Source: a virus
IMG/VR virus record: IMGVR_UViG_3300028384_000422
Span: 19,858 to 83,857 of that record
Reading direction: 5' to 3' (one strand)
DNA: 64,000 nucleotides
Below, piece after piece: positions 35,283-43,553 of the stretch. Position numbers and translations under genes: made by a program. How positions within the stretch are numbered: the stretch's first letter is position 1; the number at the start of each line of letters is the position of its first letter. The notes under the pieces are model-generated. The model was not told the origin of the DNA. It did no database searches and saw nothing but the letters and a program-made list of their open reading frames with translations.

Positions 35283-35915
35283 TTAGTCTTCTTGTCCAGC
35301 ATCTTGTGCAGGTTGTTGTGCTGGCATAACGTTAAAGTTTGCACTGATTGTAATTCTAGTTTCAGTGCCACGATGAGGTGACACTAAGTGCAAATAATGT
35401 GCTGGAAAAATGATAACATCTCCCTTCTTTACTTCGGGAACTGTTACCTGCTGTGTTGGTGCATTTAATACATCAAGTCCCTGAGATTTATACAGTTGAT
35501 GTTCAGTGTTGATGAACTTAAATGCACATCCATCATCATCATTTATAGTATGGAAGTACACCATACTCAGATTATTTCTTGGATCACAGTGATCGTGTGC
35601 TTCCTGTGAATCGCCTGAGTTATATTTACTAACCCATGCATTCATTGGCAGGATTTCAATATCAGTTTGTGATCCGACTTCTTCGATAAACTTATCAAAG
35701 ATTGGACGAATTACGTCCAACCACTCACCATAAGGTGCAGATTCATCAGGTTGAGTGGACCAAGATGTCTGCACATTACAATTCCAATCCTCAGGTTGAT
35801 GAAAGTTATTTTCGTTTGAGATATACTCACGAAACAACTCATCAATGATTAGTTGAGACCTAGTTCCTAACTGAGATTGGAAATACCACTTAGGATTGAA
35901 AACTTGAATAGTCAT
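35283..35915 (-). CDS. 2-oxoglutarate/Fe(II)-dependent oxygenase
   Basis: 210 aa. The double-stranded beta-helix metal site is visible: H109-x-D111 in HDHCDPRN, distal H176 in HYLHLVSPHRG, and R187 (TRITISANF), the expected 2-oxoglutarate-binding arginine. Such enzymes hydroxylate a substrate using O2 and 2-oxoglutarate, and are frequent in marine cyanophages, where they may act on nitrogen metabolism, proteins or DNA. The substrate is not evident here. Sits among small early genes, overlapping the preceding 63-aa gene by ATGA. Confidence 0.85.
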   Translation of the reverse strand: MTIQVFNPKWYFQSQLGTRSQLIIDELFREYISNENNFHQPEDWNCNVQTSWSTQPDESAPYGEWLDVIRPIFDKFIEEVGSQTDIEILPMNAWVSKYNSGDSQEAHDHCDPRNNLSMVYFHTINDDDGCAFKFINTEHQLYKSQGLDVLNAPTQQVTVPEVKKGDVIIFPAHYLHLVSPHRGTETRITISANFNVMPAQQPAQDAGQED

Positions 35916-37267: not shown

Positions 37268-38089
37268 TTAGGAATAATTGTATACGATAACGCAACCTGC
37301 ACCGCCGCGACTATTATTGTGTGCAAAACCATTCTGTGAATAGTAACCATAACCTCCACCAGATCCCCACTGACCATGGGTAATCTCTTCTTGGTTGTTA
37401 TAGTAATGGTGTGATGATCCTGCAGAGTGCCAGAATGATGATCCAGCACCACCTTCTCTGTTGTGACCGTGAGACATCTCACCACCACCGCCAGGTACAT
37501 TAATATCACCACCAGAAGCACTTCCGCCAGGTCCACCTTGGTGGGGAACATCAGTTTGTCCACCTTGTCCACCACCAGCAGTACAATAAGAACCGAAAGA
37601 TGAAGTGCCACCTGATGATCCCCTGCCACTATTTCTAGCATAACTACCACCAGCGCCGTAAGTATAAGCGACTGATGATACACCAGAGACATCAATCCAC
37701 TTGATAGCAGTAGCACCACCACCGCCACCTGCGCCACGGTAGCTGTTATCATTAACTCGTGCTCCACCACCACCGCCAGTGACATATACTAAAACATAAT
37801 TACATCCAGCAGGTTTTGTCCATGTTCCACTACCACCAGTAGTAGAGTTAGAGTTCCAAGTTCCATTCTGTGATGTATATACGTTCATGCCTAACAATCT
37901 ACCACCCATAGCAGCGGCAGCATAATTAGTACCATCGAACACCAATGCTTGCCCATTGGCAGCAGACATAACGTTGCTATGCACCCCAGGGACATCAGAT
38001 AGACTATTAATACCTGTAATTTGTGTAGTGGAATCACCCGTAAATGATGTAGTTCCAACATTCAAGGTTCCTACATTTAATTCTGACAT
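37268..38089 (-). CDS. Glycine-rich tail fibre protein
   Basis: 273 aa. N-terminus MSELNVGTLNVGTTSFTGDS, a linker ending LVFDGTNYAAAAMGG, then GTWTKPAGCNYVLVYVTGGG begins a Gly/Ser/Asn/His-rich domain ending GGAGCVIVYNYS. This is the glycine-rich domain found at receptor-binding ends of many phage fibres. Runs of Gly form polyglycine-II-like tips with variable loops. A late-promoter variant lies 24-31 bp upstream. Confidence 0.8.
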   Translation of the reverse strand: MSELNVGTLNVGTTSFTGDSTTQITGINSLSDVPGVHSNVMSAANGQALVFDGTNYAAAAMGGRLLGMNVYTSQNGTWNSNSTTGGSGTWTKPAGCNYVLVYVTGGGGGARVNDNSYRGAGGGGGATAIKWIDVSGVSSVAYTYGAGGSYARNSGRGSSGGTSSFGSYCTAGGGQGGQTDVPHQGGPGGSASGGDINVPGGGGEMSHGHNREGGAGSSFWHSAGSSHHYYNNQEEITHGQWGSGGGYGYYSQNGFAHNNSRGGAGCVIVYNYS

Positions 38090-38098
38090 GAATTATGT

Positions 38099-38434
38099 TT
38101 ATTCTTCACTCTTATTTATCTTCTTTACTTGTCTATTGCTCCAAAATGCCAACAGGATAATAGATGCATAAAAAATAGTATCATCCAACATCACAAGAAA
38201 GAAGATAACTGATCCACCATACTTGATAACATCAGGCAGAGGAGAGATTACCTTTGCAAAGAACTTACGATAGGATTTCTCAAACTTGAAATAACCAAGA
38301 GCACCAAGTGTGACCACAAACTCACTGTATGGAATTACAAAATACAATGACAAAATAATAAACAAGGGCCAATAATGTCTCTCAGGGATCTTAGCGACCA
38401 ATTTGACATAACGACCAATTAAATTCTTAAACAT
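38099..38434 (-). CDS. Integral membrane protein (111 aa)
   Basis: Basic N-terminus (MFKNLIGRYVKLVAKIPERH), then hydrophobic segments WPLFIILSLYFVIPY, FVVTLGALGYF and a pair including GSVIFFLVMLDDTIFYASII, with a Lys-rich C-terminus. Three or four membrane spans and no signal peptide. Overlaps the oxygenase gene by 8 bases. Could act at the host membrane; holin-like function is possible but nothing specific supports it. Confidence 0.7.
   Translation of the reverse strand: MFKNLIGRYVKLVAKIPERHYWPLFIILSLYFVIPYSEFVVTLGALGYFKFEKSYRKFFAKVISPLPDVIKYGGSVIFFLVMLDDTIFYASIILLAFWSNRQVKKINKSEE
38113..38120 (-). promoter_or_regulatory. Late-promoter variant GATAAATA
   Basis: One base from TATAAATA, 24-31 bp before the Gly-rich fibre ATG, inside the 3' end of the membrane-protein gene. 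Confidence 0.45.
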
Positions 38435-38924
38435 AATTTAGATTCAAAACCATACGATATTCATCAGTTGTAGATGTTCCTGTGTGCCTCATTGAGTTAG
38501 GAAACTCTACAAATCTATTGCCGACACTTTCTACTTTAGTGCCATCTTCAAACATTGTGTATCCATCACAGGTGTTCAAATAATAGATCGATGTCTTAAC
38601 ATAAGGGCGATCTTCTGCCTCTGTAATATCATTATGCAGTCCATGTTCAACAATACGATCCGTACCTGTCATAAAGTTTGCTTTTATCTTCACAATCGAC
38701 AGGGGTTGAATCTTATCAAGTAGAGGATAAATGACCTGCATATAATCTGTCTGTGGTGCATGATTTGTATAAAACATATGAATCATTTGAACATTTCTCT
38801 TGTAGTTCTGAGGACTATCACTGACAATCTTTGAACTAAACCAAGGGAAATTAAATGCTAACATCTGATTACGGATGTTATTATATGTTTGTTCAGGTAA
38901 GTAATTATCAATAACGTTGATCAT
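38427..38924 (-). CDS. 2OG-Fe(II) oxygenase, prolyl-hydroxylase type
   Basis: 165 aa. HGLHND carries the H97-x-D99 iron ligands, FPNSMRHTGT the distal H147, and DEYRMVLNLN the R157 that should bind 2-oxoglutarate. Fold and size resemble small prolyl-4-hydroxylase-like enzymes. It overlaps the fusion enzyme gene by ATGA, so the two are translated together, suggesting action on a common substrate. Context between fibre genes hints at modification of virion or surface molecules (inference). Confidence 0.85.
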   Translation of the reverse strand: MINVIDNYLPEQTYNNIRNQMLAFNFPWFSSKIVSDSPQNYKRNVQMIHMFYTNHAPQTDYMQVIYPLLDKIQPLSIVKIKANFMTGTDRIVEHGLHNDITEAEDRPYVKTSIYYLNTCDGYTMFEDGTKVESVGNRFVEFPNSMRHTGTSTTDEYRMVLNLNYV

Positions 38925-40642
38925 TTTTCAACGACTGCAATATACAAACCATTCCACCAATCCTTGTCATCTTCTACGATCTCTGTCCTGATAATTCTGT
39001 CGTAAACAACATCTTTACCCTTCAAGAATTCTTTTGCGTTATCAACAGCACCATTAAAGTTTGCATCATCAACAACTAAGATGTATGAATCTTCTGCTTG
39101 ATTGTGAATATGTTCTAAGTTAGGAATCATATTGTCTTCAATCTCTGCATCATAGAAGATAACATTAGGTTTGAAGTCTGGATTAAACTCCATCTGTAGG
39201 ATAGGTTTAACACAGAAACCAACTGAACAATCTGTATTGAAATACTTCTCAGCGTTCTGAATAAACTCATCGATAGGATTATCAATGGTATATTTGTCAA
39301 ATAGATTCTTATTTTTAGGACGAATACATCCTTCAGAGAAATCATCAATAGCATATGCTTTTACTGCCTCGTTACCCATCAGAGCAGCAAACAACGTGCT
39401 GCCTGTGTAACAACCAACATCTGCATAGATTGTACCACGCTCTGAACATAGATTGTTCAAGAAATGTCTAACTTTATTAGAAGACAGACCAAGAACATTA
39501 TATCCATCGGGTTTGAAGTTGGAGTTATCGTCCACAGCATTATCAATGGCACGGATGACTCTATCTACCAGAGGATTCATTTCACGCTTTTGTTTCTTCA
39601 GTCGGAATTCTACCACAGTTTCACAATAGTTACAATCCCAACAGTCAAACTTACATGTCTTGATCTTTTCACGCCATTTGTTGATAGGTGCATCGGGCAT
39701 ATCAACATCCTGCATGTAATCCTTAAACTCAGGATACATTAAACTACAAGTGGGATCATCCCATCGCTTAATAAGATCCATGGACTCTAATAGTCGCATA
39801 GTATCTTCTCTACCATGTAGTTTGAATACGTCAATAACATCTAAGAATTCTTTCCAATCACTCTTCCATGGGGGAAGATTAGCAACCTTAAGTTCATGTG
39901 CAGGATCAACTGCGTCCCATCGTGAACATGAAATACGACTGATTTCACTGTTGAAGTATTGCGGTTCTGTTCCTTGTCGTGTGCTGTTGTACTGATAATG
40001 TTCAGGCATGATAGGACAACCACCCCAACAATGTTCATTAGCAAGTAATGACAACTCTATAGGAGTTCCTTTCTCTGCACAATATTCTTTTGCTTGTTTG
40101 ATACGATCCAATGCTTCTCTGTCTCGCATAACATCACGATCCAGATTAATATAATTGAATCCAGCACTAGCGAGAGTGACAATCTCGTTAGGTTTGACTA
40201 CCTCACGAATAATAGTATTCTTGATCTTTAGTTCAGGATATTCTTTTTGGATTTGTCCTGTCATCACCCATGATGTATGAGGAATAGTTGCAGTCCTAAC
40301 ACCAGCATCATACAAGAACTTAAAGTTTTTAATAAACTCATCTAAGTTCTTTTGATCTGGACGCACCCAGATGTTATTAAACGTAGCAGACAAAGGAATA
40401 CCAGTCTTCTCACCAATCACCAGAGCATTGATAGCAACCTGCTGTGCATCTGTCTCTGTACGAAATACATCACCCATCGCATCTTGCGAGAATGGTGGCA
40501 TCCTAGAGGTGAAATATAGATCGTAAATTAGATGTTGATGCTGTAAAAGGAAGGGGACTAACCCTTCCTCAATATAATCAAGATCCAGTTTCGGATTTAT
40601 CGGAAGACTGAAGATAGCGGTCTTCAACGTTGTTGTTTGCAT
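38921..40642 (-). CDS. U32-like TIM-barrel/FeS domain fused to SAM methyltransferase
   Basis: 573 aa, two parts. Residues 1-345 resemble peptidase-U32/hydroxylase-like TIM barrels: beta/alpha sequence with LASAGFNYINLDRDVM, then NEHCWGGCPIMPEHYQYN (C205, C209), C239 and C299, followed by a cluster C330-x3-C334-x2-C337-x2-C340. These cysteines could hold an iron-sulphur centre. Residues 395-573 are a class I methyltransferase: motif I YADVGCYTGST (406-416), AIDDFS (431-436), NVIFYDAEI (493-501) and ILVVDDANF (521-529), like TylF/MTase_24 enzymes. No radical-SAM CxxxCxxC at the N-terminus. Predicted two-step modifying enzyme; substrate unknown. Confidence 0.7.
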   Translation of the reverse strand: MQTTTLKTAIFSLPINPKLDLDYIEEGLVPFLLQHQHLIYDLYFTSRMPPFSQDAMGDVFRTETDAQQVAINALVIGEKTGIPLSATFNNIWVRPDQKNLDEFIKNFKFLYDAGVRTATIPHTSWVMTGQIQKEYPELKIKNTIIREVVKPNEIVTLASAGFNYINLDRDVMRDREALDRIKQAKEYCAEKGTPIELSLLANEHCWGGCPIMPEHYQYNSTRQGTEPQYFNSEISRISCSRWDAVDPAHELKVANLPPWKSDWKEFLDVIDVFKLHGREDTMRLLESMDLIKRWDDPTCSLMYPEFKDYMQDVDMPDAPINKWREKIKTCKFDCWDCNYCETVVEFRLKKQKREMNPLVDRVIRAIDNAVDDNSNFKPDGYNVLGLSSNKVRHFLNNLCSERGTIYADVGCYTGSTLFAALMGNEAVKAYAIDDFSEGCIRPKNKNLFDKYTIDNPIDEFIQNAEKYFNTDCSVGFCVKPILQMEFNPDFKPNVIFYDAEIEDNMIPNLEHIHNQAEDSYILVVDDANFNGAVDNAKEFLKGKDVVYDRIIRTEIVEDDKDWWNGLYIAVVEK

Positions 40643-41465
40643 AATCAGTTAATACTCCAGAGGTGTCAAACATTTGAGGTCCTTGACCTTTTAACATATT
40701 CTCTACTTTTTCTTCTGCTGCTGCTTTAATCTTACCGACATTGATATTCATAGCAGTAGAATATGTCATTGCCAGATCAGTCACTGCTGCTTGATCTTCA
40801 GGACTCATCATAAGCATACTATCTAGATTGCCTGCTTGAATCCTACCAGTGGTAAGAAGATCGATGGAGCATTGTTTTGCTAAACGAGCAATCCAATATT
40901 TAACCTCTTCACCTTCCTCATTTTCTTTTGCGAGGATGGTTGCCTTGAGTGTCTCCAGATCTTCGAGATCAACATTCTCTCCTGTGCGCTCTTTGATGAT
41001 ACGCAACAGACCTTCAATCTCTCTCTTACACTGACGCAGTTTGTTGTGCCATACTTGTTTATCGAGAAGCAAAATCTCGATTTCATATTCTTTATCTTGC
41101 TTGAAATATGGATCTTCCTCAGTCTCTATTTCATGGCGAATTCTAGCGATATCGTTGAGTGTTCGCTTATATGAAATGGTTACTTTCTGGAGAGCATTAA
41201 ATCGCGTCTGGATCTCCATAATTGCTTGACGCATTTGACGCCAAGGTGTTACCTGTGAGTTAACAACAAAATATTTGTTTTGATAATCAGTTTGACCAAA
41301 GAATTGAGAATCACTCCATCCGACCAATCCTTCATCAAAATCAGATAAGACCCAGGGATCAATGTTCTCTAGGTCTTCGATTGTTTTAGATAAAGGCAGT
41401 CTCTCAGAATCTAATTCCGTACTCAAAAGGTTCTTTTCTGACGATGAGTCCGTCTTCATTTTCAA
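40578..41465 (-). CDS. Coiled-coil protein of the fibre region (295 aa)
   Basis: Acidic N-terminus with EDLENIDPWVLSDFDEGLVG, then a long heptad region (about residues 75-180: MRQAIMEIQTRFNALQKVTI ... REIEGLLRIIKERTG), and a helical C-terminal part with KYWIARLAKQCSIDLLTTGR. It overlaps its neighbours by 62 and 65 bases. Relatives occur next to fibre genes in cyanomyoviruses, without a known role. A fibre-assembly helper is possible. Confidence 0.7.
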   Translation of the reverse strand: MKMKTDSSSEKNLLSTELDSERLPLSKTIEDLENIDPWVLSDFDEGLVGWSDSQFFGQTDYQNKYFVVNSQVTPWRQMRQAIMEIQTRFNALQKVTISYKRTLNDIARIRHEIETEEDPYFKQDKEYEIEILLLDKQVWHNKLRQCKREIEGLLRIIKERTGENVDLEDLETLKATILAKENEEGEEVKYWIARLAKQCSIDLLTTGRIQAGNLDSMLMMSPEDQAAVTDLAMTYSTAMNINVGKIKAAAEEKVENMLKGQGPQMFDTSGVLTDYANNNVEDRYLQSSDKSETGS

Positions 41466-42159
41466 TACACCTACCGTAATTTAGACATTGTTGATTTGAC
41501 ATTGAGATTCCGAAGTAATCTTCTAGGAATACATTGACATCAGCGACATTTGTGATTGCTTTTAATTTAACAATCAACGTCTGTTCTGCAACAGCGAGAT
41601 CAAAAAGTTTGCCTTTCCACTCACCCTGTTTCTCGACAACTTTACCAGCAAACTGTTCAGTTGTCAACCCACGAAGTTCTGCTAACCTATGAATTAACTT
41701 AGTTTCGTGACTATTGTCTGCCAAATATGCTTGAGATTCTGCAAGTTGGTCTCCCCACGTTGCATCTTCAAGACTACTATATGTAGCACGGAGTTCTTGA
41801 TATCTTTTTTCAAATACTTCTTGCACTGCTAATGCAACTACTTTCTTCATGAAAGGCAATGTATATTGCTGCTGAATAGCAGAATCAACTGCTACTTTAT
41901 CTTTTTGTGTAGTCCCTTCTTCACTCTCACCATACTCAGATCTTTCTGCTCTGTATTCACCCCAGTATCTCTGACCAAAGGTGCCAGTCTTATAATCAAA
42001 TCTAAGATAATGAATGTATTGAGGAATATATTGGAAGTATTGATCTTCCAATTCAAAGACTTCTAGACCTAAGAAGTCACCAATTCTTGTACCCCAGACT
42101 TTAATCTGAGGCCATTTCTCTTCATCGAGAACGATAATATCGGGATTAGTAGTTGCCAT
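41404..42159 (-). CDS. Conserved hypothetical, possible fibre-assembly protein (251 aa)
   Basis: MATTNPDIIVLDEEKWPQIK, then VWGTRIGDFLGLEVFELEDQ and a helical middle (SAIQQQYTLPFMKKVVALAV). The ATG overlaps the stop of the upstream fibre gene (TGATG). Consistent placement behind the fibre genes suggests a chaperone or attachment role, but no motif proves it. Confidence 0.65.
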   Translation of the reverse strand: MATTNPDIIVLDEEKWPQIKVWGTRIGDFLGLEVFELEDQYFQYIPQYIHYLRFDYKTGTFGQRYWGEYRAERSEYGESEEGTTQKDKVAVDSAIQQQYTLPFMKKVVALAVQEVFEKRYQELRATYSSLEDATWGDQLAESQAYLADNSHETKLIHRLAELRGLTTEQFAGKVVEKQGEWKGKLFDLAVAEQTLIVKLKAITNVADVNVFLEDYFGISMSNQQCLNYGRCIENEDGLIVRKEPFEYGIRF

Positions 42160-43553
42160 CAGAAGTTAGGAATAGTTGTGCCGTAGTTGTATTGTGCGAC
42201 GCCATTGTCATCAACACCAGAAATAGCAGATGCAGAAGAACAATGAGCAGAACTCATGCCACCATGACCAGTCGGAGGTGAAGATCCACCAAGGTTAGTA
42301 ACACCATCAGTTTGATAGTTCACCTTGAAGGTGTTGTTATTCTGAGAACCATTATAGTTACCCAAGCAATAACCTTTCCTCATTCCAATTTCAAAGTTTT
42401 CCTCACCCATTCTACCGAAGTCAATACCTCTAACCTGAATACCTGATGTATCATCACACTTTTGATTGCCATTCTGGTTATTGTTACCAGTTCCAACATA
42501 CATGTGACCTAACATAGTACCAAGAATTTTCTTCCATCCATCACCACCAGGTCCATGGTTCCAACTAACCCAAGATTCAGTCTTAAATGTCATTGCTTGA
42601 CGTGTGCCACCACGCTTATACCATCCTTTTGTTCTAGAGTTACCACCCCATGTAGGGTCATCACCACCATCACCATGGTTAGGAGGGAATCCAGATGTTC
42701 TCATAACCTCTGTAACAACATTAAATGCATCAGTTCTAGCGTTACCACCACCCTGTAGATAGGATATTCCACCAGAATGTTCATAATCTTGGAATGAACC
42801 CATCGATCCTCTGTTAACAGTCATATCCCAAGAGTTTTGGTGTGAGATACCAGATTCAGAGGTCATACTGAAACCAGACGTATAGTTAGAAGAACCTCTA
42901 TAAGTGTTCTCCATAGAATGGAAGAAGTGTCTATTATCCGAGAAAGATCCTGCCATATAAGCACCAGATCTATCAAGAGTATCACCTAAGTTTGATGATG
43001 TATCTGTAGCATGAACAGTTCTATTGACGTTTCTCCATGGTGAACCACTTTGATATCCACCACCAACATATCCATGGGTCCAAATTCTTGCCAATCCCCA
43101 ATCATTTAGGACACCTTCAAAAGACCAATATGCTTCAGTTCCATTGGATTTAAGGACAGCACCCTGAGAATAATCAACACTAAATCTATCGGTAGATTGA
43201 TTCGGTGTTCCTCCACCGCTACCAGCAATAGGTCCCCATTCGGGTTGATTTGTGCTGCTATTTAAGGAATATCCCTCAAACGTGCCATCAGTTGTATTAT
43301 ATCGGAACATACCTTGAACAGGTGTTCCAGGGCGTTGAGCAGTTGTACCAACGGGAACAACAACACTACCCGTTCCAGAAATATCTAAGTTTGATCGCGG
43401 ATTTGTAGTGTTAATACCAACTTCATTATTCGCACTATCGACATACAGCGTGCCCGAATCAAAGTTAAAATTGCCACTAGATTCCAACTGGAATTGTGCC
43501 GTTCCGCCACCACCACTTAAAGAAACTACTCTATCTACATTAAGTTGGGACAT
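42159..43553 (-). CDS. Tail fibre-like protein 5 with GTTAQRP module (464 aa)
   Basis: MSQLNVDRVVSLSGGGGTAQ, SANNEVGINTTNPRSNLDIS (a common fibre shaft unit), then VPVGTTAQRPGTPVQGMFRY and NTTDGTFEGY. The last 300 residues are Gly/Ser/Asn/Trp/His-rich with no family I recognise, and end GVAQYNYGTTIPNF. Likely a receptor-contacting fibre. A late-promoter variant lies 23-30 bp before the start. Confidence 0.8.
   Translation of the reverse strand: MSQLNVDRVVSLSGGGGTAQFQLESSGNFNFDSGTLYVDSANNEVGINTTNPRSNLDISGTGSVVVPVGTTAQRPGTPVQGMFRYNTTDGTFEGYSLNSSTNQPEWGPIAGSGGGTPNQSTDRFSVDYSQGAVLKSNGTEAYWSFEGVLNDWGLARIWTHGYVGGGYQSGSPWRNVNRTVHATDTSSNLGDTLDRSGAYMAGSFSDNRHFFHSMENTYRGSSNYTSGFSMTSESGISHQNSWDMTVNRGSMGSFQDYEHSGGISYLQGGGNARTDAFNVVTEVMRTSGFPPNHGDGGDDPTWGGNSRTKGWYKRGGTRQAMTFKTESWVSWNHGPGGDGWKKILGTMLGHMYVGTGNNNQNGNQKCDDTSGIQVRGIDFGRMGEENFEIGMRKGYCLGNYNGSQNNNTFKVNYQTDGVTNLGGSSPPTGHGGMSSAHCSSASAISGVDDNGVAQYNYGTTIPNF

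Follow-up and report, generated by a model that had tools for sequence, protein, structure and literature searches.

To our knowledge, the substrates of the U32 proteins characterised so far are RNA and quinone precursors. These enzymes perform O2-independent hydroxylation and contain Fe-S clusters (PMC11574389, PMC6747719), and the canonical motif of the group consists of four cysteines arranged as CX6CX15CX3C (PMC11574389). In Bacillus subtilis, TrhP and TrmR act one after the other, hydroxylation being followed by O-methylation to give mo5U34 (PMC6599085). A literature search returned, within the terms used, no paper on phage U32 proteins. The locus described here encodes a phage protein in which a U32-like domain and a putative methyltransferase are joined in a single chain. 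The window (the whole stretch of DNA analysed, 64,000 nucleotides) is part of an IMG/VR virus record of 83,857 bases (IMGVR_UViG_3300028384_000422) and comes from a T4-like cyanophage whose fibre region is 95.6% identical to that of Synechococcus phage Syn19 (Kyanoviridae). The locus is a minus-strand run of overlapping genes, in which fibre-like genes are followed by T4-GC 351, 352, 353, and 354, a 2OG oxygenase, a 111-aa protein, and a Gly-rich fibre protein:

42159 to 43553, minus strand, T4-GC 351 / phrog_1417 ('sericin 1 precursor-like'), 464 aa, fibre or adhesin-like, candidate substrate
41404 to 42159, minus strand, T4-GC 352 / phrog_1604, 251 aa, part of the conserved module
40578 to 41465, minus strand, T4-GC 353 / phrog_1409, 295 aa, directly upstream of the fusion and overlapping its start, constant partner
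38921 to 40642, minus strand, the fusion, T4-GC 354 / phrog_1458, 573 aa, predicted U32-superfamily-like barrel and class I SAM methyltransferase
39593 to 40642, minus strand, N-terminal U32-like domain of the fusion, residues 1 to about 350, with C205, C209, C239, and C330/334/337/340
38921 to 39592, minus strand, linker and C-terminal methyltransferase of the fusion, residues 351-573 (methyltransferase about 360-573), PF13578-like
38427 to 38924, minus strand, predicted 2OG-Fe(II) oxygenase, 165 aa, phrog_274 / T4-GC 100, prolyl-4-hydroxylase-like fold, optional neighbour
38099 to 38434, minus strand, hydrophobic protein, 111 aa, phrog_1248, overlapping the 3' end of the oxygenase gene
37268 to 38089, minus strand, Gly-rich fibre protein, 273 aa, PF21722, phrog_863 tail fiber assembly

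The gene positions, the minus-strand reading frames, and the ATGA overlap given in an earlier note on this DNA were borne out, as the plus strand reads TCAT at 38921-38924 and ATGA is thus common to the stop of the fusion and the start of the oxygenase. The overlaps amount to 65 nt between 353 and 354, 4 nt between 354 and the oxygenase, and 8 nt between the oxygenase and the 111-aa gene, and translational coupling within the run is plausible. A scan for CTAAATA showed no enrichment. The fusion is present in 123 phage records over at least 80% of its length, and in comparison with Syn19 both genes appear to evolve under purifying selection (pS 0.155 and pN 0.007 for the fusion, pS 0.149 and pN 0.029 for the oxygenase); the number of records and the low pN relative to pS indicate that they are not chance open reading frames. 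In P-SSM3 (HQ337021; L085:8001-9715), the fusion is unannotated and its frame is broken in the methyltransferase half, either by a frameshift or by a sequencing error.

No convincing relative came from searching Pfam, NCBIfam, and PDB sequences directly with the window copy of the fusion, and hhalign comparisons of the N-terminal half with E. coli UbiU, UbiV, RlhA, and TrhP, made one by one, were not significant; the link to U32 proteins needed EcS1 and bacterial proteins as intermediates. Across 283 columns, the N-terminal profile of phage copies could be aligned to a U32 protein encoded by Escherichia phage EcS1 (28% identity, E 1.6e-8), and the EcS1 protein matches PF01136 at 6e-11. Once extended by EcS1 and a Desulfocapsa relative, the profile found proteins of about 400 aa in 22 of the 297 genomes of the Desulfocapsa phylum, and the extended profile had matches in 8/251 genomes of a second phylum, one of them a phage-like contig. 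The PF01136 cut-off was exceeded by four bacterial relatives of the Desulfocapsa phylum and one more, with scores above it of 52.1, 34.9, 31.9, and 28.4 bits in several of the bacterial relatives, and the Dehalococcoidia relatives tested gave no direct PF01136 match. The AlphaFold model of the fusion, of moderate confidence (pLDDT 68.7), alternates strands and helices over residues 11-295 in a barrel-like manner, and its confidence is low in two stretches that hold most of the cysteines, residues 205-254 and 329-353; a Foldseek search with this moderate-confidence model had a U32 'Peptidase' encoded by phage OLB35 among its matches (E 2.6e-8). The U32-like barrel named in the earlier note is supported through these relatives (EcS1 and the bacterial PF01136 matches), and the sequence of the N-terminal half places it on a divergent branch of the U32 'peptidase/oxidase' superfamily. 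By our judgement, which is not a computed value, this domain identity is highly probable.

The residues conserved in this half also set it apart from the U32 oxidases. Eight cysteines (C188, C205, C209, C239, C330, C334, C337, and C340) do not vary among 16 fusion relatives; N202, C205, C209, K274, and R278 are common to all 33 of 33 aligned sequences, H215, C239, and C330-C340 to nearly all of them, and D262 is also kept by phage and bacterial members with few exceptions. The conserved elements can be written as C205-X3-C209, H215, FK-x-x-GR, and C330-X3-C-X2-C-X2-C. The set C330/334/337/340, which had been put forward as a possible cluster site, stands as invariant but is one of two conserved cysteine sets, and thus half of the pattern, because C205, C209, C239, and others are conserved as well. 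U32 oxidases are further marked by a (beta/alpha)8 barrel, a [4Fe-4S] cluster, and O2-independent, prephenate-linked hydroxylation. A barrel-like modelled fold, FK-x-x-GR, and conserved cysteines are shared with the U32 oxidases (TrhP, RlhA, UbiU/UbiV; PF01136), as are, through the bridging proteins, PF01136 matches. However, the fusion has C-X3-C / H / C and a C-terminal CX3CX2CX2C in place of CX6CX15CX3C, carries an attached methyltransferase, and is viral. Because the canonical four-cysteine motif is absent from its N-terminal half, we place the domain in a divergent superfamily branch, outside the U32 oxidases proper.

The C-terminal half is a predicted class I SAM methyltransferase of the Methyltransf_24/TylF-like type, as had been claimed, and this agrees with both the domain matches of its relatives and its modelled fold. 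PF13578 is matched in 4/16 fusion relatives and not by the window copy itself; the fusion of the distant phage L154 scores 39.1 bits (cut-off 26.3). Residues G410, G414, T416, D433, D525, and D526 are invariant, the first three lying in G-x-Y-x-G-S-T at 410-416. Foldseek matches of this half include macrocin O-methyltransferases and also TrmR (5zw3), while a PDB profile search with it gave nothing meaningful. TylF-like methyltransferases act on sugars.

Relatives of the N-terminal domain are found in different surroundings in bacteria. A standalone relative, 43% identical, lies on a Desulfocapsa contig (L105:1-4316) between the genes of an RTX protein and a C39-peptidase ABC exporter; neither the 258 genomes searched from its order nor plasmids yielded a close copy of it. 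Other Desulfobacterota relatives adjoin molybdenum hydroxylases and UbiD. In the Dehalococcoidia, all five loci (5/5) lie near reductive-dehalogenase-like genes, an assignment that Pfam (PF13486) bears out for one of these genes. Three (L194, L195, L196) hold dehalogenase-like and U32-like genes; in 2/5, the operons L197:6449-10262 and L198:3881-7679, a Methyltransf_2 O-methyltransferase gene stands between the dehalogenase-like gene and a U32-like gene with the phage cysteine pattern. These two operons resemble the phage fusion in the cysteine pattern and the O-methyltransferase neighbour; however, their methyltransferase belongs to PF00891, is unfused, and is encoded beside reductive-dehalogenase-like genes. 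The bacterial surroundings support, as far as gene content can indicate, redox chemistry coupled to O-methylation. As regards the U32-like protein and the methyltransferase, the earlier suggestion of an unusual pairing is weakened by these operons and by B. subtilis TrhP1/TrhP2/TrmR (PMC6599085). The U32-like 'peptidase' of coliphage EcS1 (phrog_5757 of Escherichia phages; L098:4782-5957) has a related C-terminal cysteine motif; it differs from the fusion in lacking a methyltransferase and in its genomic setting, where it is surrounded by genes for sugar isomerases, one resembling a nucleotidyltransferase gene, and one for a thymidylate-synthase homologue, a group that may serve DNA hypermodification. 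The EcS1 U32 protein was considered as the maker of 5-hydroxycytosine and rejected, as in Mosigvirus this step is assigned to a thymidylate-synthase homologue (PMC13390438).

The 165-aa neighbour of the fusion is, by sequence and model, a predicted 2OG-Fe(II) oxygenase with a prolyl-4-hydroxylase-like fold. The residues previously proposed as its active site, H97, D99, H147, and R157, proved invariant in 15 relatives, 10 of which match PF13640 (the window copy itself does not), and the best 50 listed matches of its model (pLDDT 84) are prolyl hydroxylases throughout (PHD2/P4H folds). The closest folds, PHD2 and Pseudomonas putida P4H, share the HxD...H and R arrangement, although identity is only about 15%. 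In many cyanophage records, the phrog_274 family carries the label 'DNA endonuclease V/denV', with which sequence and fold disagree; a DenV identity was rejected because there is no PF03013 match and the predicted fold is a beta-rich 2OG one, and the mislabel is hereby corrected. A second 2OG-Fe(II) oxygenase (PF13759, phrog_81) is encoded in the same region at 35283-35915, and BLASTP gave no significant match between it and the phrog_274 protein.

The constant unit in phages is the four-gene fibre module 351/352/353/354, to which one clade optionally adds the 2OG oxygenase. Gene 353, whose 295-aa product is without any known domain, lies directly upstream of the fusion in 104 of 105 loci, the single exception being S-ShM2, in which it sits farther upstream, and the four genes, counted separately, occur in similar numbers of phage records (130 for 351, 121 for 352, 123 for 353, and 123 for 354). 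In the distant phage L154, whose fusion is 39% identical, genes 351-352-353-354 are followed by a tail fibre gene without the oxygenase, so the placement between fibre genes, correctly described before, is kept there as well. The oxygenase and the fusion had been regarded in the earlier note as a functional pair, a view to be given up should they not be conserved together, and this is in part what was found: the two adjoin in 72 of 95 distinct loci with downstream sequence but in 0/13 loci whose fusion is 40-60% identical, and members of the oxygenase family are present in 251 phage records, compared with 123 that carry the fusion. On the adjacency counts, the pair was rejected as the conserved unit. 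It is fairly probable that the two proteins are functionally untied, cyanophage fibre regions accumulating 2OG oxygenases and the adjacency being confined to one clade, as both sets of counts and the S-SM1 region, with several 2OG oxygenases and T4-GC 354 not listed there, suggest; however, most loci in the other clade have the two genes adjoining, with an ATGA overlap or a few bases between them, which allows a clade-specific tie.

Taken as a whole, the best explanation, which we hold tentatively and at somewhat less than an even chance, is that an Fe-S hydroxylase and an O-methyltransferase are combined in one chain serving the fibre module. The analysis shows the domain identities, the conserved residues, the synteny of the module, and purifying selection; that the protein binds an Fe-S cluster and hydroxylates, which step comes first, and what is modified are inferences. 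The U32-like half would be an Fe-S protein adding a hydroxyl group without O2, which the tethered methyltransferase would cap by SAM-dependent O-methylation; by judgement, not computation, this order has about an even chance of being right. Since the fusion would be an enzyme of the four-gene fibre module, its likeliest substrate would be the 351 protein or another fibre protein of the module, 352 and 353 being possible assembly or presentation factors. A fibre substrate, again by judgement and not computed, is possible rather than probable. The bacterial link to an adhesin consists of one contig (Desulfocapsa), and most bacterial relatives whose surroundings were read adjoin small-molecule redox genes, not surface proteins. 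The latter setting, with molybdenum hydroxylases, UbiD, and reductive dehalogenases, together with the two Dehalococcoidia operons with a neighbouring Methyltransf_2 O-methyltransferase and the action of TylF-like enzymes on sugars, would fit an enzyme whose substrate during infection is a metabolite (aromatic, quinone-like, or a sugar), which it hydroxylates and O-methylates. We consider this unlikely, as it leaves the strict phage linkage to the fibre-cluster genes 351-353 unexplained.

That linkage, here the persistence of the phage fusion with gene 353, also stands against nucleic-acid modification, in which the fusion would hydroxylate a pyrimidine (e.g., tRNA U34) and O-methylate it in the manner of TrhP/TrmR for mo5U. 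Both activities are encoded in one B. subtilis operon (PMC6599085), and the U32 hydroxylase TrhP1/TrhP2 is paired with the O-methyltransferase TrmR much as in the fusion, but as separate proteins and with tRNA as substrate. TrmR is among the fold matches of the methyltransferase half, yet so are many unrelated methyltransferases, and the fusion lacks the canonical cysteine motif of RNA-acting U32 proteins. The EcS1 relative, among thymidylate-synthase and sugar genes resembling a DNA-hypermodification cluster, points toward nucleic acid; nevertheless, we find this explanation quite unlikely. Little probability is given to the N-terminal domain being a scaffold or a different Fe-S enzyme, of redox or radical type, instead of a hydroxylase. 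The U32 cysteine pattern is non-canonical and C330-X3-C-X2-C resembles radical-SAM spacing; however, it sits after the barrel and not after its first strand, the bridging relatives are PF01136 proteins, and no fusion member has a radical-SAM Pfam match (a single NCBIfam radical-SAM match in one member, E 0.011, is weak and far below cut-off use). The preferred explanation in its most specific form, a viral one-chain O2-independent hydroxylase/O-methyltransferase acting post-translationally on the tail-fibre adhesin of the phage itself, is rather doubtful.

The fusion places predicted Fe-S U32-type chemistry inside a fibre gene block of marine cyanophages, fused to a methyltransferase, and its cysteine-pattern subfamily is common to phages and anaerobic bacteria. 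If the proposal is true, a tail-fibre adhesin would be a kind of substrate so far undescribed for U32 proteins, and, with a fibre as the substrate, the fusion would provide a new phage route to altered host recognition.
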